DNA of 64,000 bases from a bacterium. GTDB taxonomy: Bacteria; Bacillota; Sulfobacillia; UBA995. The notes under the pieces were generated by a model, which worked only from the letters and a program-made list of their open reading frames with translations, was not told where the DNA came from and made no database searches. The stretch is taken from positions 365,831 to 429,830 of the forward strand of contig JAVHLP010000001.1 of NCBI GenBank assembly GCA_031082145.1, read 5' to 3'. Shown here one piece after another: positions 38,650 to 51,817 of this stretch (within the stretch, counting starts at the first letter, position 1; the number at the start of each line of letters is the position of its first letter). The position numbers and the translations under genes are program-made.

Positions 38650-40107
38650 CTAAGCACCGCCGGCCGCCGCCGGTGGCCGCCAGACGGCTGCCGGGATGGG
38701 TAACTTCCACTGTCGCCGGATATCCGCCCGCTCCCGCCACTGGCGGTGGTCCCCTATGAGCCGCCGCAGGGGTTCGATCTCCTCCGAGCACTCCTTGTAG
38801 CCCGGCAAGGAGGTCAGGTCAGTCCATAGCGCGGAGAAGAGAGGCCGGAAGAAGGCCTTGCGACCGCGATAGAAGGCTCGCTGGGCCTCGGCCGGGGTGA
38901 GAACCCGGCGGCGGAGGAGGTCGCCGTCCATGGCGATGAGCCGGGCCAGGCTTATGACCGCCCGGGTCACCACCGGGGACACCAGCCAACTGGACAGGGT
39001 GCGGTACTCAAACCCGTGCCGCTGTAGCCTGAAGTCCCCCAGAAAGCCGTAGCGCCGCCGGCGTTGTTGGGCGGTCTCCGTCTTTTCCACCAGCATCAAT
39101 GGGAGGGCCAGGTGGTTATCCAGGGCCCGCAGCAACCAGGTGGTCGGCCGGAGGTTTCCGAAATGGATGTGCCCGCCGATGGGAAAGCCCTTGAAGGGCA
39201 TGCTGCCGGCGAGCCACTTGATGTTCGAGTAGGGCGCCAGCTCGAGGGCTTGGCGCAGGGCGGCGCGAATGCCTCGTAACACCTCGTCGGGGCAGGAGTG
39301 CGGCCGGGGCCGCACCTCGGCCAGCGGGAAGGACGGTCGCGGGGAGCGCCTGAGCAGCCGGTCGTCACAACCGACGCTGCCGTGGCGGGGGAAGAACTGG
39401 GAGGCCGCCACCATCCGCCGGGTGACGGTGTCCTGCAGCATGAACTCGGGATCGGCCCCCAGCAAGAGCGGCGAGGCCGGCGAGGGCCGGCAGTCCCGGC
39501 GCCGGGCGTCGGCGATGGCGATGTGGCGAGACATCAGGGCCCTGAGGGCGGCGGCCCAAGCCTCCAGGAGTTCCGCTTCCAGCCGCGGCGCGGGGTCGAC
39601 CCAATGCACGGCCGGCGACCCCTTGGGGGGAACCACCACATCCACTGCCCCGAAGTCCAGCCCTGTGCTGTACAAAGCCGATCTGGCCGCCCGCACCACT
39701 CTGTCCGCGGCCGATCCGGCCGGAACCTCCCTGAACCCTCCTCTCCGCATACGCTTCAGCACCGCAACCGGTTCCAGGTCGCAAAGGTGCACGCGATAGC
39801 CACGAACCCGGGCCACGCTGGGCGCCAGTTGAGCAGTGGTCCGTACCCCGTTGAGCCGCAGGACTTCCCGCAGCCGCTCAGAGTCGCCGGCGTTCTCCAG
39901 GCCTTCACGGCCGTTGAGGATGGCGCCCGGACCCGGATCGGCCGGCCATCCCCAGGCGAGAACGCCAAGCGGCTCCCCGTCCGGGTCCAGGAGATCCCGC
40001 AGCCGGGCCTCGAGGCGGAGTGCGGTCTCGTCGCCGGGCCGGGCTATGAACTTGATCAAGCCCCTCCCCCCCCGGTGGCCCCTAGCCGGCGCTCCTGGCC
40101 CCGTCAC
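38650..40107 (-). CDS. Predicted COOH-NH2 amidoligase (glutamine-synthetase-like fold, phiEco32 type 2)
   Basis: 485 aa from GTG 40107, which has GGAGGAGGGG upstream and overlaps the previous gene by 26 bp (TTG 40059 is an alternative, 469 aa). The C-terminal two thirds carry the amidoligase landmarks: LLLGADPEFML (about residue 215), FPLAEVRPRPHSCPDEV and GGHIHFGN, plausible Mg-ATP and carboxylate ligands of the glutamine-synthetase/GCS fold. The N-terminal ~200 residues lack a recognisable motif. Such enzymes are predicted to join a carboxyl to an amine. Last in a four-gene operon behind three ATP-grasp paralogues. Confidence 0.85.
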   Translation of the reverse strand: MTGPGAPARGHRGGRGLIKFIARPGDETALRLEARLRDLLDPDGEPLGVLAWGWPADPGPGAILNGREGLENAGDSERLREVLRLNGVRTTAQLAPSVARVRGYRVHLCDLEPVAVLKRMRRGGFREVPAGSAADRVVRAARSALYSTGLDFGAVDVVVPPKGSPAVHWVDPAPRLEAELLEAWAAALRALMSRHIAIADARRRDCRPSPASPLLLGADPEFMLQDTVTRRMVAASQFFPRHGSVGCDDRLLRRSPRPSFPLAEVRPRPHSCPDEVLRGIRAALRQALELAPYSNIKWLAGSMPFKGFPIGGHIHFGNLRPTTWLLRALDNHLALPLMLVEKTETAQQRRRRYGFLGDFRLQRHGFEYRTLSSWLVSPVVTRAVISLARLIAMDGDLLRRRVLTPAEAQRAFYRGRKAFFRPLFSALWTDLTSLPGYKECSEEIEPLRRLIGDHRQWRERADIRRQWKLPIPAAVWRPPAAAGGA

Positions 40108-41488
40108 CCCCCTCCTCCATCAGGGGGTCGAACCCGACCAGGTAGCGGCAGTAAAGGACGAGCTTGGTCCAGGCATACTCGCGAATGGCATCCTCATCAA
40201 AACGAAACGGCTTGGAGTTGATCTCCAGAACCCAGACCCGTCCGTCCCGATCCACCGCCATATCCAGTGAGAGTTCGCCGAAGCGGTGACCCAGTTCGGC
40301 GTCGAGCCCTTCCGCCAGAAGGCCGACGGCCCGCTCGAGCTCGACGATGATCTCCCGCACCCGGTCCGGCGAGCCGAAACTCGCTCCCAAGGCCCTGAGC
40401 AACGGTTGGCGGGTGCCCCCGTTGGGCACATGGGTGGCAATCCCGCCTCGCCGGGCCACCCGGGCGGCCATGCCGGTCACCGTCCAGACACCCCGGCCGT
40501 CCTTCTGGGCCAGAGCCCGCACATCGAACACCCGTCCCTCAAAGGTGGCCAGGGGCACGCCCTGCTGCACGATGTAACGGCGGGCCCGCACGAGGCTCCG
40601 GATCACCCCTCGCAACCGGGCGGCCCCGGTGACGCTAAGCCGCCGGACCCGGCCGGGCCGCATCTGGTGCCGGACGGTGAAGCGGGAAAGGCCCGTGCGC
40701 TCGATCTTGACTATGCCGACGCCCAGGCTGCCGCCCGCCTGCTTCAGGTACAGGACCGGGTACCGGTCGACCATGGTCACGAACCCACCGCCGCCGAAGC
40801 GCATCGTGGCCGGCAGGTAGGGCGCCGCCTCCGGACGCATCCGGAGCAGCTTGTAGACGTTCCACTTGTCCAGGTAATGGGGGTTGAAAAAGCGGTGCCC
40901 CAGTTCGCCCTCCAGTCGCCGGTAGAAAGCCTTCATGGCCGCCTCGCGCTCGGCGGAGCGGCTAGAGACCCGGTTGTAGATGATGTCGGGAAACGGCAGC
41001 CGGTGCCGCCGCCAGCGGTTACGGCCGGCACCGGGTGTTAACACGTAGCCGTCAAGCCTTCCGGGTCGCCGGCGGATGCCCGCCGGCGGGAAGACGGCGG
41101 CTATGGCCCCCAGCTTTCGTGCCGCCATGGCCACACCCCTCAAGGACGCATCCTGAGGCCCCAGGCTGGAGGTCACCCGCGGGCGTCCGGCGGCGTGAAG
41201 CGTCATCACCCCGATCAGGGGGCCCAAGCGAAGCCCCTGAGTGGTCCGGCCCAGGGTCAGCCAGTGGCCAAGGGGAACCATGCCGCGAGCTATTCGCGGG
41301 ACCTCAAGCCGGCCCCCGGACCCGTCGCCAGCAATGGCCAACTCGGCGATGCCACCATCCTTGCCGAACCGGATCGGCACCCGGTCTCCCGCGCTGAGCC
41401 CGAGTCTCACCGCCGTCGCGGGTGGCACGCTAAGGCCGAACCGGCTCTTGTCACCCAGGCCGGCGGCCCTCACCGCCATAACCCTCAT
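40082..41488 (-). CDS. YheC/YheD-family ATP-grasp protein, copy 1 (with N-terminal beta domain)
   Basis: 468 aa. An N-terminal ~75-residue beta-rich domain (SVPPATAVRLGLSAGDRVPI) precedes the YheC/D ATP-grasp. Landmarks: FNPHYLDKWNVYKLL, YLPATMRFGGG, LYLKQAGGSLGVGI (nucleotide-binding Lys), YIVQQGVPLA and ELSLDMAVDRDGRVWVLEIN (Asp and E-x-N metal ligands). YheC and YheD are spore-coat-associated in B. subtilis, and their ligase reaction has not been shown. It overlaps the next upstream gene by 4 bp. Confidence 0.9.
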   Translation of the reverse strand: MRVMAVRAAGLGDKSRFGLSVPPATAVRLGLSAGDRVPIRFGKDGGIAELAIAGDGSGGRLEVPRIARGMVPLGHWLTLGRTTQGLRLGPLIGVMTLHAAGRPRVTSSLGPQDASLRGVAMAARKLGAIAAVFPPAGIRRRPGRLDGYVLTPGAGRNRWRRHRLPFPDIIYNRVSSRSAEREAAMKAFYRRLEGELGHRFFNPHYLDKWNVYKLLRMRPEAAPYLPATMRFGGGGFVTMVDRYPVLYLKQAGGSLGVGIVKIERTGLSRFTVRHQMRPGRVRRLSVTGAARLRGVIRSLVRARRYIVQQGVPLATFEGRVFDVRALAQKDGRGVWTVTGMAARVARRGGIATHVPNGGTRQPLLRALGASFGSPDRVREIIVELERAVGLLAEGLDAELGHRFGELSLDMAVDRDGRVWVLEINSKPFRFDEDAIREYAWTKLVLYCRYLVGFDPLMEEGGDGARSAG

Positions 41489-42579
41489 GCGTCATCACCT
41501 TCCACCAGGCTCCGGGCGTACCGGAAGATTCTCCTCCCCGCCAGCCGGCGCTCCCTCCAGGCCCTCGCCAGCACCAGGGCCCTCCGCCCGGGGCGCGCGT
41601 TGGCCTCCAGGAACCAGGGTTGACCCTGGAGGTCCAAGACCATGTCGACTCCCAGTTCGCCAAAGGGCCCGAACCGCTGCTCGATCGGTGGCGGCACGGC
41701 CAGGGCCAGAGCTCTCAGACGGGACAGGGCCTGCTCTGCCCGCCCAGGCTGGCCCCGGTACAGCAGTCTCAAGAAAGACCGGGCAGCCTTGGCCGTACCC
41801 CCAGTGTGCAGGTTGGACGTTATCCCCCTGGACCGGCCGATCCTGGCCACCAACGCCGTTAGCCTCCACCCGGCCGCACCATCACGGTGCAGCAGCCCCC
41901 GTACGTCGAAAGGTCTCCGGCGGCGACCGGGAACCTCGATTCCCTGCTGTACAACGAAGTCATCGCCGGCCCCGGCCATGTCCACAGCCGCCTGAAGGCC
42001 GGACACCCGCCGGCCGGCCACCCGCCCCGGCGAGCGAACCCGGTAGGCCCCATCGGGATCGGCGGTCAGGCGTTCCAATCTGACCACCTGCTGCCCCTGG
42101 GTCCCCGAACGGGGCTTCATGTAGATGAGGGGCCAGCGGCAGGCCACCTCGCGGACGGTCTCGACACCCGCGAACAGAAAGGTAGCAGGAAGGTGAGCCC
42201 GCATCGCCGGCTCGGTCCAGAGACACTGATACACGTCCCACTTGTCCAGGAACGTCGGGTTGAAGTAGCGCCCATGGTACCTGGCCTTGAGCCTCCGCAC
42301 AGCCTGGGCCACCGGCGGCCGTCTGGCATCCCTCCGGTTGACAATGCGATCATAGACCACGTCGGGCAAGCGATGGTTGGACCGCCGCCAGCCACCCCTG
42401 CCGGCGGTCCAACCCCGTACCGTCCCTGTCTCCCAGTTCACGCCCTCCGGGGTGAACACGTAGGCCCTACACCTCTCCTGCCGGGCCGACCGCAAGAGCG
42501 CCCGGAAGAGCGGGCTCTGCTCGCCAAAACCTCGTCCCGCCGTCAGCGTGGTCAACATCCCGACCAGTGGAGTTCTCAT
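41485..42579 (-). CDS. YheC/YheD-family ATP-grasp protein, copy 2
   Basis: 364 aa, without the N-terminal beta domain of its neighbours; it starts at the MRTPLVGMLTTLTA segment that marks the catalytic part. ATP-grasp landmarks: FNPTFLDKWDVYQCL, LPATFLFAGVE, IYMKPRSGTQGQQVVRL and GELGVDMVLDLQGQPWFLEA with an E-x-N ending (EANARPG). Overlaps copy 1 and copy 3 by 4 bp on either side (ATGA), so the three are made together. Confidence 0.9.
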   Translation of the reverse strand: MRTPLVGMLTTLTAGRGFGEQSPLFRALLRSARQERCRAYVFTPEGVNWETGTVRGWTAGRGGWRRSNHRLPDVVYDRIVNRRDARRPPVAQAVRRLKARYHGRYFNPTFLDKWDVYQCLWTEPAMRAHLPATFLFAGVETVREVACRWPLIYMKPRSGTQGQQVVRLERLTADPDGAYRVRSPGRVAGRRVSGLQAAVDMAGAGDDFVVQQGIEVPGRRRRPFDVRGLLHRDGAAGWRLTALVARIGRSRGITSNLHTGGTAKAARSFLRLLYRGQPGRAEQALSRLRALALAVPPPIEQRFGPFGELGVDMVLDLQGQPWFLEANARPGRRALVLARAWRERRLAGRRIFRYARSLVEGDDA

Positions 42580-43994
42580 TGCGACACCCCCACCTCGCCG
42601 GCGCCGCCCGCCCTCTCAACTGGTTCTTCCGCGAAGCCGGCGAGGTGGCGTGCGTAGGCCAGGGGCCGGACCAGTGCCAGCCGCACCAGGGCCATCGATC
42701 CTCGCTCGGTGGTAACGTTGCGCCAGGGGCGGGAGTTGACCTCGATCAGCCAGATCTGCCCGGTTCGGTCCACTCCCAGGTCGAGCCCGAGTTCGCCGAG
42801 GGTCACACCCAGCGCCGACTCGACCAGGGGAGGGAGCCACGTCGAGACATCCCGCAAGCGGCGCGCGGTCTCCCGCCGTCGGGCCGGCCTGGCCCGAGCC
42901 AGGGCGATGGGAACTACTCTCGCCAACGGCTCGCCCGTCCCGCCGGCGCTGATGTTCGAGGTTATCCCGCCGTAGCTCCCAACGCGGGCGAACAGCTTGG
43001 TCCGCCGCCAGTGGCCGCTCTCGTCCCGCTGCATCAGGATCCGCACGTCGAAAGGGCGGGTCCCCACCCGGGCCAGATCAAGACCTTCCTGGGCGAGGTA
43101 CTTCCGGCCCCGCATCAGCCGGGCCAGAGCCCGGGCGAGACCGGCGGCTCCCACGGCCTCACCCGTCCGCACCGACCTTGGTCCCTGGAACTGCCAGAGG
43201 TATTGCTCCGGCCAGCGCCGGAGAACCCGGATGATGCCCCGGCCCTGGCTGCCGCCCGTAGGCTTCAGGAAGACCACGCGGTGACGATCTAGCATGCCCA
43301 GTACGATGGGTACGCCCTGGTAGCGATGAGTCTCAGGCAGCAGCGGCCGGATGCGGGGTTCGCCCATGAGCGCCTGGTAGGTCTCCCACTTGTCCAGAAA
43401 GGAGGGGTTAAAGTAGCGGGAACCCAGCGCCTGCTCCAGCCGCGCCGCCGTGGCGGCGACCGGGGGGCGGCGTTCCGCCTGCCGGCTGGGGATCCGGTTG
43501 TAGACGGCGTCCGGAAAGGGGAAATGCCCCCGGCGCCACCGGCCCCTGCTCCCCGAGAAGGTGTAACCCCGGACCGTTCCCCGTTCCCAGTCAACCGATC
43601 CGGGAGTGAAAGCGAAGGCCAGCACGCCCTGGGTGGCCGCCAGCCGGGTCATCTCCCGGACGATCGGTGTCTGGCCGCCGAAGAGCGAGCGCCGTCCCCG
43701 GGTGGTGAAGATGCCCACGATAGGGCCCAACCTGACGGTGGGGGGATCGTTACCTACCCGCACCCCCAGGCGTACTCCAGCCGGCATTCGCAGTGCCTGG
43801 AGGAGGGCCCGGTTGGCCCAGAGGGAACGTTGGCCGGCGCCTGTACGTTGCACCACGACGGCCCTCGTTCTCCTCCCTCCCGCCTCAACTGTGAGCTCAC
43901 CCCCCGGCTCAACTCCCAGCAAACGGGCTGCGGAATCGGTGAGCGTGAGAACCGGTCCCCCCGGCGGTCCTGTCAGCCTTCCCAGCGTCCACAC
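42576..43994 (-). CDS. YheC/YheD-family ATP-grasp protein, copy 3 (with N-terminal beta domain)
   Basis: 472 aa from GTG 43994; first gene of the operon. Same architecture as copy 1: beta domain (LLGVEPGGELTVEAGG), then ATP-grasp with FNPSFLDKWETYQALM, LPETHRYQGVP, VFLKPTGGSQGRGIIRV, KYLAQEGLDLARVG and GELGLDLGVDRTGQIWLIEV ending E-x-N. The paralogues differ most in the segment between the adenine-binding Lys and the metal-binding loop, which suggests different substrates. Confidence 0.9.
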   Translation of the reverse strand: MWTLGRLTGPPGGPVLTLTDSAARLLGVEPGGELTVEAGGRRTRAVVVQRTGAGQRSLWANRALLQALRMPAGVRLGVRVGNDPPTVRLGPIVGIFTTRGRRSLFGGQTPIVREMTRLAATQGVLAFAFTPGSVDWERGTVRGYTFSGSRGRWRRGHFPFPDAVYNRIPSRQAERRPPVAATAARLEQALGSRYFNPSFLDKWETYQALMGEPRIRPLLPETHRYQGVPIVLGMLDRHRVVFLKPTGGSQGRGIIRVLRRWPEQYLWQFQGPRSVRTGEAVGAAGLARALARLMRGRKYLAQEGLDLARVGTRPFDVRILMQRDESGHWRRTKLFARVGSYGGITSNISAGGTGEPLARVVPIALARARPARRRETARRLRDVSTWLPPLVESALGVTLGELGLDLGVDRTGQIWLIEVNSRPWRNVTTERGSMALVRLALVRPLAYARHLAGFAEEPVERAGGAGEVGVSQ

Positions 43995-44020
43995 GGGTAT
44001 CGCCAGCCATCCGGGCCGGT

Positions 44021-44049
44021 AGTAACGGCCGGTAAACAGTATATGTCAA
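44021..44049 (-). promoter_or_regulatory. Candidate promoter of the ATP-grasp/amidoligase operon
   Basis: On the minus strand TTGACA (44049-44044), 17 nt, GTTACT (44026-44021). Overlapping it, CATATACT (44045-44038) resembles the -10 of the mother-cell sigma factors E and K. AT-rich compared with its surroundings and 27-45 bp before the GTG at 43994. Which sigma factor applies cannot be decided from sequence. Confidence 0.3.
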
Positions 44050-44137
44050 CCCCGCCGACCGGTTACCGGCGGGGCATTGTGTCGAGCGGACCTGGCGGGA
44101 CGGAGTGGGCCGGGTGATGGCCGGAGGCAGTGGCGAG

Positions 44138-44165
44138 GGGCCCGCCTGAGCGGTCAGGCGGGCCC
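44138..44165 (-). terminator. Perfect 12-bp hairpin downstream of cotE-like gene
   Basis: Arms GGGCCCGCCTGA (44138-44149) and TCAGGCGGGCCC (44154-44165) around GCGG. No U-tract. It lies 66 bp after the stop of the CotE-like gene; a second weaker stem, CCCCGCCG/CGGCGGGG, is at 44050-44074. Confidence 0.5.
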
Positions 44166-44231
44166 GATCCCGGGCACTGGGGGATGACCCGGCGGGTGGC
44201 GGGGCGGGCCGGAAGCCGGAGCCACCGGGAG

Positions 44232-44813
44232 CTAGAGGTCTTCTTCCTCCGGAGCCCCCTCCTCTTCGTCCAGCAGGTCCTCCCACTCATCGTCACTGAG
44301 TTCATCATCGCGCCCGGTGCCGTTGCCCTTCAGCTTGCGGGCCACCACTTCCTCGGGGTAGGCCCGGACCCAGAGCCGGGCGGGGCCAAGCACCTCGGCC
44401 GCGTAGGCCGTCTCCACCACCAACTCAATCTGCCCGCCAGAGGTGATCCGGGCGTCCCACACTCCCGGCTCGCGCGCGGCCGTGATCTCCACCGTCTCGT
44501 TGCTGCCTACCCGCCCGGGGACCGACGTCACGGCGAGGTTCTCGCGGAAACCGAGCTTCTCCTTGGCCAGTTCGGTCTGCGTCCCCCCGCTGTGCGAGTA
44601 CCACACTTCGGCGGCGTAGTTACCGGCGATCTCCACCTCCGACCCGCCGGGCCGGGCCCGGTAGTCGTGGTTCACCACCCGGGCGCCCAGGATGCTGGTG
44701 GGGCGCTTGACCGGGTTGATGACGTGGGTCTGGAGGTAGCGATGACTGCCGCTGGCCACGACGGCCCGGGTGATGATCTGCCGGAACGCCCCCCCCAAAG
44801 CCTTCTCTGCCAT
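44232..44813 (-). CDS. cotE: Outer spore coat morphogenetic protein, CotE family
   Basis: 193 aa. The match to B. subtilis CotE is collinear: FRQIITRAVVASGSHRY, then INPVKRPTSILGARVVNHDY, VEIAGNYAAEVWYSHSGGTQ, and an acidic C-terminal tail (SDDEWEDLLDEEE). CotE is made in the mother cell and organises the outer coat around the forespore. Its presence shows that the organism forms spores of the CotE type and that the neighbouring ATP-grasp cluster may serve the spore envelope. Own transcription unit, minus strand. Confidence 0.9.
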   Translation of the reverse strand: MAEKALGGAFRQIITRAVVASGSHRYLQTHVINPVKRPTSILGARVVNHDYRARPGGSEVEIAGNYAAEVWYSHSGGTQTELAKEKLGFRENLAVTSVPGRVGSNETVEITAAREPGVWDARITSGGQIELVVETAYAAEVLGPARLWVRAYPEEVVARKLKGNGTGRDDELSDDEWEDLLDEEEGAPEEEDL

Positions 44814-45017
44814 GCCAGACTCCCCCTTCGGCTCGCTTCCTGCCTTCCCCCGGGAGGCAGGTCAGCGGTCACCCGGCGATCCGTGCCCCGGCCGCCAGGC
44901 TCGTTTCATGATATGGATGACCCAAGAGGGGCGTGACAGAACTCCCAGGGGAAATAGGTCTCCAGGGGGGGGTCGGTCGTCGGGGGCGGCCGGTGCCGGA
45001 CCGGCCGCCGTCACCGC

Positions 45018-45878
45018 CTAGCCGCCGATCTCCGTGCGTATAAGGTCCCGGTAGGAGTCCAGCAGTTGCCGGGTGACCGGCCCCACCCGGCCGTCACCCA
45101 CCGGCAAGCCGTCAAGGTTTACCACGGGCATCAGCTCGGTGTGAGTTCCGGTCACGAAGAACTCCCCGGCGCGGGCCGCCTCATCAAGGGTAAAGGGCTC
45201 CTCAAGGGAAGTGATACCCAGTCGCAGGGCCAGTTCAAGCACTGCCGCACGGGTGACCCCAGAGAGGATATGTTGTGAACAGGGAGCGGTCCGCAGCACC
45301 CCGTCAACCACGGCGAACGCGTTGGAGGCGGTCGCCTCGGTGACCACGCCATTCCGGTGTAGTAGGCACTCGTATGCTCCATCGCCGGCGGCCCGGGTCC
45401 TCAAGAGGACGTTGGCGACCAGGGCGGTTGTCTTCAGGTGGCACCACTCCCACCGGATATCGCGGTGGGTGATCACCTTCACTCCCTCCCGGTAGCGGTC
45501 CTCGGGCTGGGGAGGCACTCCCCGGCAGGTGATAATCAGGTTGGGCTGGAGACCCTGCAGAGCGACATGGGCGCGGGGCCCTTGACCTCGGGTCACCTGT
45601 AAGTACAGCAGGCCCTGAGTCTCACCGGATCGCTCCCAGAGTTCATCCAGCAGGCCGGCCAGCCCTCCCGGCACCTCCGGCGGGGGAATATCCAGGCCGG
45701 CCATGCCCTCCCGCAAGCGAGCCAGGTGGGGCCCGGCCCGGAAGAGCCGGCCCCGGTAAGCTCGAACCACCTCGTAGACACCGTCCGCGAATTGCATCCC
45801 CCTGTCCTCGACGTGTATCAGGGCTTGCTCGATGGGAAGCACCTGCCCGTTCACATAGGCCAAAGGCAATGACCTCAC
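45018..45878 (-). CDS. dat: D-amino-acid transaminase (class IV PLP enzyme)
   Basis: 286 aa from GTG 45878, overlapping the M20 gene by 4 bp. Class-IV fold: YVNGQVLPIEQALIHVEDRG, QFADGVYEVVRAYRGRLFRA, YLQVTRGQGPRAHVA, DIRWEWCHLKTTALVANVL (catalytic Lys within LKTT) and HRNGVVTEATASNAF. The collinearity with Bacillus D-amino-acid transaminase, notably VTRGxxPRAH, favours D- over branched-chain specificity. Makes or uses D-Ala/D-Glu. End of a four-gene operon. Confidence 0.88.
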   Translation of the reverse strand: MRSLPLAYVNGQVLPIEQALIHVEDRGMQFADGVYEVVRAYRGRLFRAGPHLARLREGMAGLDIPPPEVPGGLAGLLDELWERSGETQGLLYLQVTRGQGPRAHVALQGLQPNLIITCRGVPPQPEDRYREGVKVITHRDIRWEWCHLKTTALVANVLLRTRAAGDGAYECLLHRNGVVTEATASNAFAVVDGVLRTAPCSQHILSGVTRAAVLELALRLGITSLEEPFTLDEAARAGEFFVTGTHTELMPVVNLDGLPVGDGRVGPVTRQLLDSYRDLIRTEIGG

Positions 45879-47239: not shown

Positions 47240-48529
47240 CTAAGTTGCAGCTTCGATCCCCGGCACGCTGTCTCCTGCCACCGGGGGCCGTTCAGCACCG
47301 CGGAAGAAGGCGTAGAAGAGGGCCGCTCCCACTACATAGCAGGCGCTGGTCAGGGTGAAGGCGGCGCTGAATCCCCCCCTCACCTGGAGGAAGCCGCTGA
47401 TGATGGGACCCAGGCCGCCCCGGCCCAGGCCGCCCAAGATCTCGGCCAGGCTCGAGAAGGTGGCCCGCTGGTCCTCCCGTACCTGTTCCAGCAAGAAGAC
47501 ATGGCGGACGGGGCCACTCATGTTCATGAGGGCTTGCCGGAAGTAGTAGGCCAGGACCACCCAGCGCAAGTCGTAGGAGTAAGCCAGGACGAGAAGGAAC
47601 GGGATGGAGGCCAGTTCGGTGCAGACTACGGCCCGGACCCGGCCGAAACGCCGCGCCAGTCCGGGTGACACCAGGGTGGCCACGGCGGTGGTCACCGAGG
47701 CAAAGGCGAAGAGCACGCCAATGGTCCCCGGCTCCAACCCGAAGCGCAACCGGAAGAACAGCTGGAAGAACACGACCATGGCCCCGGCTCCGGTCGCCAC
47801 CAGGGCCGAGGGGCCCAGTAGCTTGAGAAACAGCTTGGCCTCGCCCCAGTTCCGGGGTAGGGGCCGGGCGGCCCCCGGTGGGCGGCTCCGGGGCTCCCTC
47901 ATGCCGAGCAAGGGGCCGATCGCCAGGGCGGAGAGGGCAACCGCCGTCAGCAGGGAAGCCCGCAAGGGCTCGACGTCACCGGCGGCCAGGCCCCACCAGC
48001 CGCCATACAGGCGAGGCAAGGCTCCTCCCAGCAGGCTGCCCAGGAAACCGACGCTAAGGCCGATGGCGGAACTGATGGCGAACAGGTGCAAGCGGTCCTC
48101 GGGGCGACTGATGACCATCATCAGCGGGGCCGCGATCACCCAGGTCAGAGCGCCGCCCAAGCCACCCAGCAGCGAGAAGCCCACCAGCAGGGCCGGCGGC
48201 CGGGCCAGGGCCAGACCCAGGCCCGAGGCGACACTGAGCACCGCTCCGACCCGCATGAAACCCAGGTAGCCCCGGCGGTCGGCGGCGATCCCCAGCGGCA
48301 GGCCGACCACCAGCACGACCACAGCCGGAAGACCATTGAGGAGCCCGATGAAGTCCTGGCGGTAGCCCAGGGCATGGATGTAAAGGTTGAAGATGAGAGC
48401 CGTGATGGCCCCGCCGGTGCTGGCAAGAGCCATGACCATGAGCATCAGGCGGGTATTGGTGTCGAACCGCTTCACCGCTGACGAGTACTCGGCAACCCAT
48501 CCCAAGACCGGGAATCCCTCCTCGGTCAC
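47240..48529 (-). CDS. MFS transporter, tandem paralogue A
   Basis: 429 aa from GTG 48529, overlapping the upstream paralogue's stop by 4 bp; the frame is open to 48853 but that part lies within the other transporter. Twelve hydrophobic helices, with the MFS motif A-like DRRGYLGFMRVGAVLS after helix 2. The loop YRQDFIGLLNGLPAVVVLVV and the C-terminal LEQVREDQRATFSSLAEILG are almost identical in the second copy. Substrate unknown. Confidence 0.88.
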   Translation of the reverse strand: MTEEGFPVLGWVAEYSSAVKRFDTNTRLMLMVMALASTGGAITALIFNLYIHALGYRQDFIGLLNGLPAVVVLVVGLPLGIAADRRGYLGFMRVGAVLSVASGLGLALARPPALLVGFSLLGGLGGALTWVIAAPLMMVISRPEDRLHLFAISSAIGLSVGFLGSLLGGALPRLYGGWWGLAAGDVEPLRASLLTAVALSALAIGPLLGMREPRSRPPGAARPLPRNWGEAKLFLKLLGPSALVATGAGAMVVFFQLFFRLRFGLEPGTIGVLFAFASVTTAVATLVSPGLARRFGRVRAVVCTELASIPFLLVLAYSYDLRWVVLAYYFRQALMNMSGPVRHVFLLEQVREDQRATFSSLAEILGGLGRGGLGPIISGFLQVRGGFSAAFTLTSACYVVGAALFYAFFRGAERPPVAGDSVPGIEAAT

Positions 48530-49794
48530 CGCCCCGGGCCGGCGGCGGCGGGCACCCGGCCGGCCGCGGCCGGCTCCCCTTCTGTGTGTCGGAAGAAGAA
48601 GTGGAAGAGCAGCGCCCCTGTCACATAGCAGACACTGGTCAGCGTAAAGGCCGCCGAGAACCCGCCCCGGACCTGCAGGATCCCGCTTACGATGGGGCCC
48701 AGCCCGCCCCGGCCCAAGCTGCCCAGCATGGCGGACAGGCTGGAGAAGGTGGCCCGCTGGTCCTCCCGCACCTGTTCCAGCGAGAATATGTGCTGGACGG
48801 GGCCGCCCATGTTCATGAGCATCTGCCGGAAGTAGTAGGCGGTGACCACCCAACGCAGGTCATGCGAGTAGGCGAGGAGCAACAAGAAGGGTATGGAGGC
48901 CATCTGGGTCAGGACCACCGTCCGGACTTTTCCCGAGCGCCGGGCCAACACGGGGGCAGCCAGCGTGGCCAGGGCGGTGGTCACCGCCGAGAAGGCAAAG
49001 AGGGTTCCGATGGTCCGGGGCTCCAAGTTGAACCGCAGCCGGAAGAACAACTGGAAGAACACAACCATAGCCCCGGCTCCGAAAGACACGAGTGCTGAAG
49101 GGGTGAGCAGCTTCAGGAACAGCGAGATCTCGCGTCGGCCGCGGGGCAGGGGGCGGGACGTGGCCGGGCGCGCTGTTCGGGTCTCTCTCATCACCAAGAG
49201 GGGTAGGAAAGACAATGCGGAGAAAGCCACCGCCGCCATCAAGGCCCAGCGCAGCGGCTGGGCATCCGACGCCGCCATGCCCCACCAGGCGGCGAAGACG
49301 CCGGGCAACGCCCCTCCCAGCAGGCTGCCGGCAAAGCCGGTGGCCAACGAGAGGGCGGACGCTACCGAGAACAACGTCACCCGGTCTTCCGGCCGGGTCA
49401 AGCTCATCATGAAGGGAGCGCCGATAACCCATGAGAGGGCGCCACCCACGCCACCTACGAGCGAGCAGCCCACCAGTAAGGCCGGTGACTGCCCGAGGGC
49501 CAAGCCCAGGCACGAGGCTGTGGACAGAACCGCTCCAACCCTCAGGAAGCCGAGATAGCCCCGGCGGTCGGCGGCCATGCCGATCGGCAACCCGATCAGC
49601 AGCACGACCAGTGCCGGCAGCCCGTTCAGCAGGCCGATGAAGTCCTGCCGGTAGCCCAGGCTGTAGATATACAGGTTGAAGACCAGGCTGAAGATGGCGT
49701 GGGACATGCTCCCAAGCGCGTTTACGGTCAGAAACAGCCTGGCGTTGGTGCCGAACTGCCGGATGGACCCCAGGTGTTCGAGCAACCCGATCAA
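48526..49794 (-). CDS. MFS transporter, tandem paralogue B
   Basis: 422 aa from TTG 49794 with GAGGGG upstream. The same twelve-helix layout as paralogue A and long near-identical stretches (YRQDFIGLLNGLPALVVLL, DRRGYLGFLRVGAVLS, LEQVREDQRATFSSL), which shows a recent tandem duplication. First gene of the operon with the M20 hydrolase and D-amino-acid transaminase. The stop-start overlap could allow coordinated expression of a pair. Confidence 0.88.
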   Translation of the reverse strand: MIGLLEHLGSIRQFGTNARLFLTVNALGSMSHAIFSLVFNLYIYSLGYRQDFIGLLNGLPALVVLLIGLPIGMAADRRGYLGFLRVGAVLSTASCLGLALGQSPALLVGCSLVGGVGGALSWVIGAPFMMSLTRPEDRVTLFSVASALSLATGFAGSLLGGALPGVFAAWWGMAASDAQPLRWALMAAVAFSALSFLPLLVMRETRTARPATSRPLPRGRREISLFLKLLTPSALVSFGAGAMVVFFQLFFRLRFNLEPRTIGTLFAFSAVTTALATLAAPVLARRSGKVRTVVLTQMASIPFLLLLAYSHDLRWVVTAYYFRQMLMNMGGPVQHIFSLEQVREDQRATFSSLSAMLGSLGRGGLGPIVSGILQVRGGFSAAFTLTSVCYVTGALLFHFFFRHTEGEPAAAGRVPAAAGPGR

Positions 49795-50019: not shown

Positions 50020-50487
50020 TCAGAAGGTGAACCAGTGCGATCCGATGACCGTCGCCACCGGTCTCCGCACCATGAACGGGTGCCTGCTCTTCTGGGGGTT
50101 GAAGAAGAAGAGGGCGCCGCCGCTGGGGTCCCACCCCGACGCTGCCGCAACCGCGGCCCGCTCGGCCGATGCCGCGGGCGGAAGGTAGATTCGCCCATTT
50201 GCGACCGGTTGGAACTGGCCGGGCTGGAAGATAACGCCGCGTACGGTGCTCGGGTAGTCGGGGCTGCCAACACGGTTGAGGACCACGGCGCCAACCGCCA
50301 CTTGGCCCTCGAAAGACTCTCCGCGGGCCTCCGAGCTTATGATGCGCGCCAGCCAGAGCAGGTCACTCTCGGTCAGCTCGTGAGCCGGCGCCGCCTCAGC
50401 GGCGGGGATCGACTCCACGCCGGCCAGTGAGATGGCCAGGGCCAGGGCGAGCATGGCCACCGGCGTCAAGCATCTTGTCTTGAACAT
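50020..50487 (-). CDS. SleB-type cell-wall hydrolase, secreted
   Basis: 155 aa from ATG 50487 behind GGGAGGAGAG. Signal peptide (MFKTRCLTPVAMLALALAIS, likely cut after AEA near residue 33), then the hydrolase_2 domain: WLARIISSEARGESFEGQVA (catalytic Glu), VGAVVLNRVGSPDYP, VIFQPGQFQPV and FFFNPQKSRHPF. This matches the catalytic half of SleB/CwlJ, which break spore cortex at germination. It lacks an N-terminal peptidoglycan-binding domain, so the role could also be vegetative. Confidence 0.9.
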   Translation of the reverse strand: MFKTRCLTPVAMLALALAISLAGVESIPAAEAAPAHELTESDLLWLARIISSEARGESFEGQVAVGAVVLNRVGSPDYPSTVRGVIFQPGQFQPVANGRIYLPPAASAERAAVAAASGWDPSGGALFFFNPQKSRHPFMVRRPVATVIGSHWFTF

Positions 50488-50532
50488 CGTACCTACTCTC
50501 CTCCCTGGACTATTGTTTGAGGATCTTTGTTC

Positions 50533-50561
50533 AGGGTAGACGTCCCCGCCGGGCAAGTCAA
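50533..50561 (-). promoter_or_regulatory. Probable sigma-A-like promoter of the SleB-type hydrolase
   Basis: On the minus strand TTGACT (50561-50556), 17 nt, TACCCT (50538-50533). The -35 matches five of six, the -10 three of six. It lies about 45 bp upstream of the ATG at 50487. Confidence 0.45.
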
Positions 50562-50731
50562 GGTTCCTGGAGCTCACAAATGCTGACAGGCCCCGGCGAC
50601 TACGGCCGCCTCTTCAGTACCAGCATCATGGCAATGTTTGCCAGTTGGGTCCGTGGTCCCGTGCCGCTGTTACACCCGTCCCGGTCGCGCCCTCAACCAG
50701 TGAACGTAAGTTAGTCAAGGGAGGGGCACCT

Positions 50732-51817
50732 ATGGCCACGCTAGGGGTTTTCCTTGACTCGGGGGTACTCTTCAGGGTACTGCGCCGGCGGCGTGTGTTC
50801 GAGGCAGTGCATCTCTACGAACCGGCCGCCCGGGAGTTCGGGCTGAATCTCGTCCTGTTCCGGCCCCGCGGCCTCAGCCGGCGGCGGAGGAGGGTCCGGG
50901 GCTACTCGGTCCCCGGCTTTCGGCCGGTGAGCGTTCCGATTCCCGAGGTAGTGCACAACCGCACCCTCCAATCCGCCTCGTCCAGGAGCGGCGTACGATG
51001 GCTACAGGCACGCGGCGTGCATGTGTTCAACCCCATCGTGCCGGCCAGCAAGCATGCCAAACACCTCCTCCTCAACCGGTCTGCCGAGGTTCGCCCCTAC
51101 CTGCCGTCCGCCTTCCGGCTCGCACCGGGCTGGCCCGCCCGATTGGAGACACTGCAACGTCGCTCGGGGCAGTTCTTTGTCAAGCCCAGTTTCGGGTCCC
51201 GCGGGCAGGGTGTCATCCGGATAGCCAGCGCCGGCGGGGGCAGGTACCGGGTCGACGGCGTCCGGCACCGGGTTGTAGGCCGAAGAGGACTGCGACGGTG
51301 TGTTCGCCAGGCGGCCCGCCGGGGCCCCCACATCCTGCAGGAGGGCATTGAACTCGCCCGCTACCAGGGTCAGCCCTTCGACATCCGGGTGCACCTGCAA
51401 CGGGGCGAGGGCGGCCACTGGAACGTGCCCGGCATGGCCGCCAGGAGGGCTCACAGCGGCCGCTTCGTCACCAACCTCACCCGGGGCGGGTCGGCCCACC
51501 GGGTCCGCGAGGTGCTCGCGGCCGCGTTCCCCGGCACCGACCGAGAGCGCATCTACGAGCACATCGAGCAAGCCAGCCTGGCCGTGGGCCGGGCCATGGC
51601 GTCGAGTTATCCCCGGGTTGCCGACCTCGGCCTTGATGTGGGGCTAGATCGTGACGCCCACCCCTGGATCCTGGAGGTAAACCTCCGGATGCTGCGTCTC
51701 AGCCTTAGGGATACGGGCGAACACGAGGCCTGGGCCCGGGTGTACCGAAACCCAGTGGCCTACGCCCATCATCTGCTGACCACCGGGGGCCACATGGGAG
51801 AGGCGGGGACGACATAG
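50732..51817 (+). CDS. YheC/YheD-family ATP-grasp protein, copy 4 (separate from the operon)
   Basis: 361 aa from ATG 50732 behind GGGAGGGG. The compact form: MATLGVFLDSGVLF, FNPIVPASKHAKHLLL (replacing the FNPxxLDKW of the others), YLPSAFRLAPG, FFVKPSFGSRGQGVIRI, HILQEGIELARYQGQPFDI and DLGLDVGLDRDAHPWILEV ending E-x-N. The altered DKW segment sets it apart from copies 1-3. It is monocistronic, divergent from the SleB-type gene. Confidence 0.9.
   Translation: MATLGVFLDSGVLFRVLRRRRVFEAVHLYEPAAREFGLNLVLFRPRGLSRRRRRVRGYSVPGFRPVSVPIPEVVHNRTLQSASSRSGVRWLQARGVHVFNPIVPASKHAKHLLLNRSAEVRPYLPSAFRLAPGWPARLETLQRRSGQFFVKPSFGSRGQGVIRIASAGGGRYRVDGVRHRVVGRRGLRRCVRQAARRGPHILQEGIELARYQGQPFDIRVHLQRGEGGHWNVPGMAARRAHSGRFVTNLTRGGSAHRVREVLAAAFPGTDRERIYEHIEQASLAVGRAMASSYPRVADLGLDVGLDRDAHPWILEVNLRMLRLSLRDTGEHEAWARVYRNPVAYAHHLLTTGGHMGEAGTT

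Follow-up and report, generated by a model that had tools for sequence, protein, structure and literature searches.

In the 64,000-nucleotide stretch analysed here (hereafter the window; positions 365,831 to 429,830 of contig JAVHLP010000001.1), a gene for the spore coat protein CotE, three genes for ATP-grasp ligases of the YheC/YheD type (YheC/D) that keep their catalytic residues, and a gene for an amidoligase with a glutamine synthetase (GS)/gamma-glutamylcysteine synthetase (GCS) fold stand together on one strand, and this gene set recurs in spore-formers. We predict that they constitute a late mother-cell, coat-associated amide-forming system whose ligases modify the spore coat, and we give this reading a probability of about 0.62. 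An initial annotation, made from the letters of the window, had already proposed a spore-linked amide-forming operon. The proposal is supported by the linkage of CotE with YheC/D, the near-confinement of the ligase, within the phylum sample, to genomes with SpoIVA, sigmaK-like promoters, intact active sites and confident folds.

All genes of the cluster lie on the minus strand, and Pfam confirmed the families that the initial annotation had assigned to them and to a fourth ATP-grasp copy elsewhere in the window. The gene at 44232..44813 encodes a CotE-family outer spore coat protein with an acidic C-terminal tail (PF10628, E=6.5e-33; 114 bits against a cut-off of 25) and is the sole CotE gene of the genome. 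It is followed by YheC/D copy 3 (42576..43994; PF14398, E=4.8e-69), which is the first of the ligase genes and carries an N-terminal beta domain, by copy 2 (41485..42579; E=5.6e-59), which is devoid of this domain, and by copy 1 (40082..41488; E=1.2e-67), which has a putative N-terminal beta domain and directly precedes the amidoligase gene. The latter (COOH-NH2 ligase, 38650..40107) matches the full-length PF14395 domain (residues 216-469, profile positions 1-254; E=8.5e-100; 333.6 bits against a cut-off of 25). Copy 4 is on the plus strand at 50732..51817 (ATG at 50732; PF14398, E=8.9e-54 when scanned from a TTG at 50645), and the four copies of the window score 183-233 bits against a cut-off of 26.8. 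The same genome has the SpoIVA gene and a sigmaK gene that scores above the curated cut-off.

The four ligase genes had been described as overlapping head to tail, with CotE immediately upstream. Overlaps of 4 bp were found between copies 3 and 2 and between copies 2 and 1, whereas the overlap of copy 1 with the amidoligase gene depends on the start codon of the latter. The GTG at 40107 gives an overlap of 26 bp; the TTG at 40059, which agrees better with the homologues and is also preceded by a purine-rich stretch, leaves a gap of about 22 bp. The CotE gene is on the same strand, but it is separated from copy 3 by 237 bp, and a promoter-like site lies inside this gap, before the ligase genes.

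The metal and lysine motifs that had been noticed in all four ATP-grasp copies of the window proved to be complete. The genome has six YheC/D copies, four in the window and two on contig C33, and each of them keeps the two ATP-grasp lysines and the metal-binding Asp, Glu and Asn (K202, K244, D405, E418, N420). Across 60 aligned YheC/D proteins these five catalytic residues are invariant, save for one Glu replaced by Asp. Structure prediction, which the initial annotation had suggested as a check, was carried out with AlphaFold for copy 3 and the amidoligase, and both gave confident ligase folds. In the model of copy 3 (pLDDT, the predicted local distance difference test score, 93.3), a beta-rich domain of roughly 96 residues stands apart at the N-terminus. 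The beta domain said to be common to copies 1 and 3 is thus modelled confidently in copy 3, while in copy 1 the likeness consists of an N-terminal part of the same length. The best fold match of copy 3 was RimK (5zct), accompanied by glutathione synthetase and a graspetide ligase, with ArgX among the next. By sequence, the solved proteins nearest to the YheC/D profile were TTLL6 (best) and glutathione synthetase. RimK, tubulin tyrosine ligase (TTL)/TTLL, ArgX/LysX and graspetide ligases are the nearest solved folds, with weak sequence matches and the same kind of Lys/Asp/Glu/Asn set, but YheC/D is distant from them (10-18% identity) and has the extra beta domain. Since the family cut-offs were missed (18 bits against 143 for the NCBIfam model rimK_fam, 12-18 against 20.1 for TTL), we rejected membership of the window proteins in the RimK and TTL families and count the likeness only as one in manner of working.

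The model of the amidoligase was of similar quality (mean pLDDT 93.0), and its fold matches included ATP-grasp enzymes besides glutamine synthetase and YbdK. The motifs GADPEF, ExRP, GGHxHF and FEYR are present, and the key acidic, His and Arg residues are invariant in 39 of 39 sequences. The C-terminal domain shares its fold with YbdK/GshA-like carboxylate-amine ligases and glutamine synthetase; in contrast to these enzymes, it is fused to an additional N-terminal domain, which the initial annotation had missed. When profiles were compared, this N-terminal part could be aligned with the C-terminal portion of the YheC/D domain (E=1.5e-5); the GS-like part gave no match. Because the Glu-x-Asn metal motif is replaced (VDPAP in the window protein), the N-terminus is an ATP-grasp-like domain without a catalytic metal site. 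The ligases of Syntrophomonadaceae (L044-L095) additionally have low-complexity C-terminal tails rich in Arg, Ser and Thr (about 20-125 residues), which are found neither in Paenibacillus nor in the window and which possibly serve as coat anchors or phosphorylation targets.

A scan for the ligase domain in the genomes of 84,980 species yielded 439 relatives, and the loci of the best 80 of the 439 were retrieved and compared; the flanking DNA of many of them ended early at contig ends. These 80 relatives belong to Bacillota (Syntrophomonadaceae, Paenibacillus, Aneurinibacillus, Ammoniphilus, Thermoflavimicrobium, Tumebacillus, Alicyclobacillaceae, Thermincola, Heliobacterium and metagenome-assembled genomes). 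Within the available flanking DNA, YheC/D was near the ligase in 63 of the 80 loci and CotE in 31; either was present in 77 and neither in 3. The arrangement varies from CotE-ligase in Paenibacillus to CotE-YheCD-YheCD-ligase-YheCD-YheCD in Tumebacillus, and Thermincola-like loci have two CotE and four YheC/D genes followed by the ligase. The nearest relative (L043) has the gene order of the window, together with the upstream genes for an M20 peptidase and an aminotransferase. In it, copy 1 and copy 3 each have an orthologue of their own, and the two copies fall into different groups of a quick YheC/D tree with many long branches. L043 also has two short genes between CotE and the YheC/D genes (L043:4257-5220) that the window does not have, one of which resembles a toxin-antitoxin-type nucleotidyltransferase. 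At another locus (L020:121-2940, minus strand) the PF14395 ligase and YheC/D are fused into one protein of 940 amino acids; two long open frames, G325 (961 aa) and G359 (989 aa), may resemble this fusion.

The initial annotation had called for a search for the same operon in non-sporulating bacteria. Within the phylum, represented by 398 evenly sampled genomes, this search did not contradict a link to sporulation: the ligase was found in 52 genomes, of which 51 have SpoIVA, the exception being a 61% complete genome. All 52 also encode YheC/D (Fisher p ~1e-32, to be taken as a guide only).

To assess the timing of expression, we searched up to 200 bp upstream of the genes with a working form of the sigmaK consensus, AC-N15..17-CATANNNT, and used dinucleotide shuffles as the null. 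The two-block layout and the spacing correspond to the published sigmaK consensus (PMC517825). The pattern was present upstream of 24 of 35 CotE genes, compared with a mean of 1.05 in the shuffles, and upstream of 42 of 136 YheC/D genes, compared with 3.25; a sigmaE-like pattern was not enriched upstream of these genes. In the whole window, both strands included, there are four matches to the sigmaK pattern, with about three expected by chance. Two of the four precede CotE (44908..44934, minus strand, ACGCCCCTCTTGGGTCATCCATATCAT; the counterpart in L043 is ACGTCGCCTCTGGGTCATCCATATCAT) and copy 3 (44038..44063, minus strand, ACCGGTCGGCGGGGTTGACATATACT), and L043 has both sites in the same positions. 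This strongly suggests that CotE and the ligase genes are each driven by a sigmaK-like promoter of their own. Since these sites recur and a sigmaK gene is present in the genome, CotE on the one hand and the ligase genes on the other probably form two transcription units with the same timing. A scan for sigma70-like promoters and terminators gave nothing useful.

ATP-grasp and GS-fold ligases convert a carboxylate to an acyl phosphate and then join it to an amine. The ligases of the window would settle on the forespore surface, as YheD of Bacillus subtilis does, and there carry out this reaction with ATP, so that amino acids or short peptides could be added to coat proteins in a RimK/TTL-like modification. 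Each of the three ATP-grasp copies may serve a step or substrate of its own and the GS-fold enzyme a further one, the latter perhaps guided by its ATP-grasp-like domain, which has no metal site. Next to the ligase gene of many relatives lies a gene for a zinc hydrolase, probably secreted, that might then trim or remove the product. We consider it more likely that coat proteins are modified in place than that a small free product is made, because B. subtilis YheD forms a SpoIVA-dependent, self-interacting shell around the forespore (PMC7911427, PMC7769602), YheC is entered in a spore coat protein table (PMC8005191), and both are encoded by a gene pair controlled by sigmaE and SpoIIID (PMC517825). 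The proteins of this coat-associated pair belong to the same Pfam family as the window copies; the window differs from B. subtilis in having three YheC/D copies in one operon together with PF14395, and sigmaK-like rather than sigmaE-like sites.

Several observations weigh against a coat-modifying system of this kind. The genomes and loci compared are related and not independent, so that the p-values overstate significance. CotE scored above the cut-off in only 30 of the 52 ligase genomes, leaving 22 with no match at that level, and hence it is not an obligate partner. Moreover, B. subtilis, one of 14 control genomes searched, has CotE and YheC/D but no PF14395, and so a coat can be built without the amidoligase. 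Finally, a second operon of the same genome (L007) has no sigmaK-like site upstream.

Alternatively, the operon could make, with one ligase for each bond, a free, ribosome-independent small peptide or polyamide that fills the coat or is stored there, comparable to the products of the glutathione, cyanophycin and teichuronopeptide pathways. Several ligases of two folds in one operon are found in known stepwise pathways (PMC4431377), the YheC/D copies belong to different tree groups, and the glutathione synthetase, D-Ala-D-Ala ligases and YbdK that match by fold act on small molecules. However, we saw no conserved amino-acid biosynthesis or export gene accompanying the cluster, the aminotransferase and the M20 peptidase are common only to the window and L043, and the coat-protein behaviour of B. 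subtilis YheD suits protein modification better, which leaves a free product an unlikely candidate. The related idea that the acidic C-terminal tail of CotE is itself the direct substrate, to which YheC/D would add residues as tubulin glutamylases or RimK do on acidic tails, agrees with the adjacency of the CotE gene and the closeness of YheC/D to TTLL6 by sequence and to RimK by fold. Most CotE proteins of these loci have D/E-rich ends; that of the window (...SDDEWEDLLDEEEGAPEEEDL) has 16 D/E in its last 35 residues. Yet acidic tails were also present in 5 of 5 strong-match CotE proteins from genomes without the ligase; the presence of such a tail is not tied to that of the amidoligase, and this weakens its case as the specific substrate. 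Given also the ligase genomes without a CotE match above the cut-off, we consider this idea improbable.

A mainly structural or morphogenetic role in the coat, with the ligase fold kept from an ancestor, seems very improbable for these proteins. B. subtilis YheD, a self-interacting shell with no known activity, and the lost metal site in the N-terminal part of the amidoligase would fit such a role, but the retention of catalytic residues in 60 of 60 YheC/D proteins (one Glu being Asp) and 39 of 39 ligases is unexpected for pure scaffolds.

The second operon of the genome, on contig C33 (L007:8914-12968), has two YheC/D genes and a PF14395 gene in a window-like order without CotE. A gene for an AstE/aspartoacylase-like zinc hydrolase (PF24827) is arranged tail to tail with the ligase gene at this locus and in 37 relatives out of the 80, chiefly Syntrophomonadaceae; no such gene is found beside the window operon. 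By inspection, the AstE-like proteins have a hydrophobic, export-signal-like N-terminus and keep the HxxE, His and Glu motifs, and they are probably secreted. Because an amide-cleaving type of enzyme adjoins amide-forming ones, the arrangement suggests that the hydrolase trims or removes the ligase product, and in these lineages it points to the kind of bond made. A reversible amide-conjugation cycle, in which several ATP-grasp ligases and a GS-fold ligase attach amino acids or peptides to coat proteins late in sporulation and the secreted hydrolase removes or remodels the conjugates, is a tentative and rather unlikely extension of coat-protein modification; if true, it would be a covalent coat chemistry beside transglutaminase and tyrosine cross-links. 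The protein encoded next to the second operon (L007:12965-16624, minus strand; 1219 aa) comprises five tandem AstE/aspartoacylase-like domains with, by inspection, zinc ligands only in the first. A single-domain relative follows at L007:16843-17718, and L106 shows the same arrangement, likewise with zinc ligands, by inspection, only in the first of the five domains. A third PF14395 ligase of the genome, also on contig C33 (L012:9869-11494), with the same ATP-grasp-like N-terminus, is solitary; it is flanked by two long proteins resembling tetratricopeptide repeats.

The neighbourhood of PF14395, PF14398 and CotE in Firmicutes was reportedly predicted by Iyer, Abhiman, Burroughs and Aravind in 2009 (Mol Biosyst 5:1636), with a role in spore coat or cell wall modification, and the Pfam entry texts presumably already link PF14395, YheC/D and CotE. 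By these accounts, the association and the coat role are not new. Added here are the distribution counts, the promoters, the degenerate ATP-grasp half, the ligase-YheC/D fusion, the second operon, the AstE-like neighbour and the confident models. A later paper of the same group mentions that operonic linkages of ATP-grasp and COOH-NH2 ligases were observed earlier (PMC4431377). No experimental work on PF14395 in spores turned up in our literature searches. Little is understood of spore coat chemistry, or of what the YheC/D proteins do in the coat. The old prediction can now be tested directly, since the ligase cluster is recurrent and marked by promoters, keeps its active sites and occurs in culturable genera such as Paenibacillus, Tumebacillus and Thermoflavimicrobium.

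Upstream of CotE, the gene at 45018 had been named a D-amino-acid transaminase that could supply D-residues. It encodes a class IV aminotransferase whose nearest models are indeed those of D-amino-acid transaminases, but it scores below their cut-offs. The gene, like that of the M20 peptidase, lies upstream of CotE's own promoter-like site and its synteny is shared only with L043, and on this ground D-amino-acid supply by the aminotransferase was rejected. Copy 4 has a long branch in the quick tree and is not clearly part of the operon's system; it is on the opposite strand and is divergent from a gene for a SleB-like cell-wall hydrolase (50020-50577). Two tandem and similar major facilitator superfamily transporter genes (47240-49794, minus strand) lie upstream of the M20 peptidase gene.

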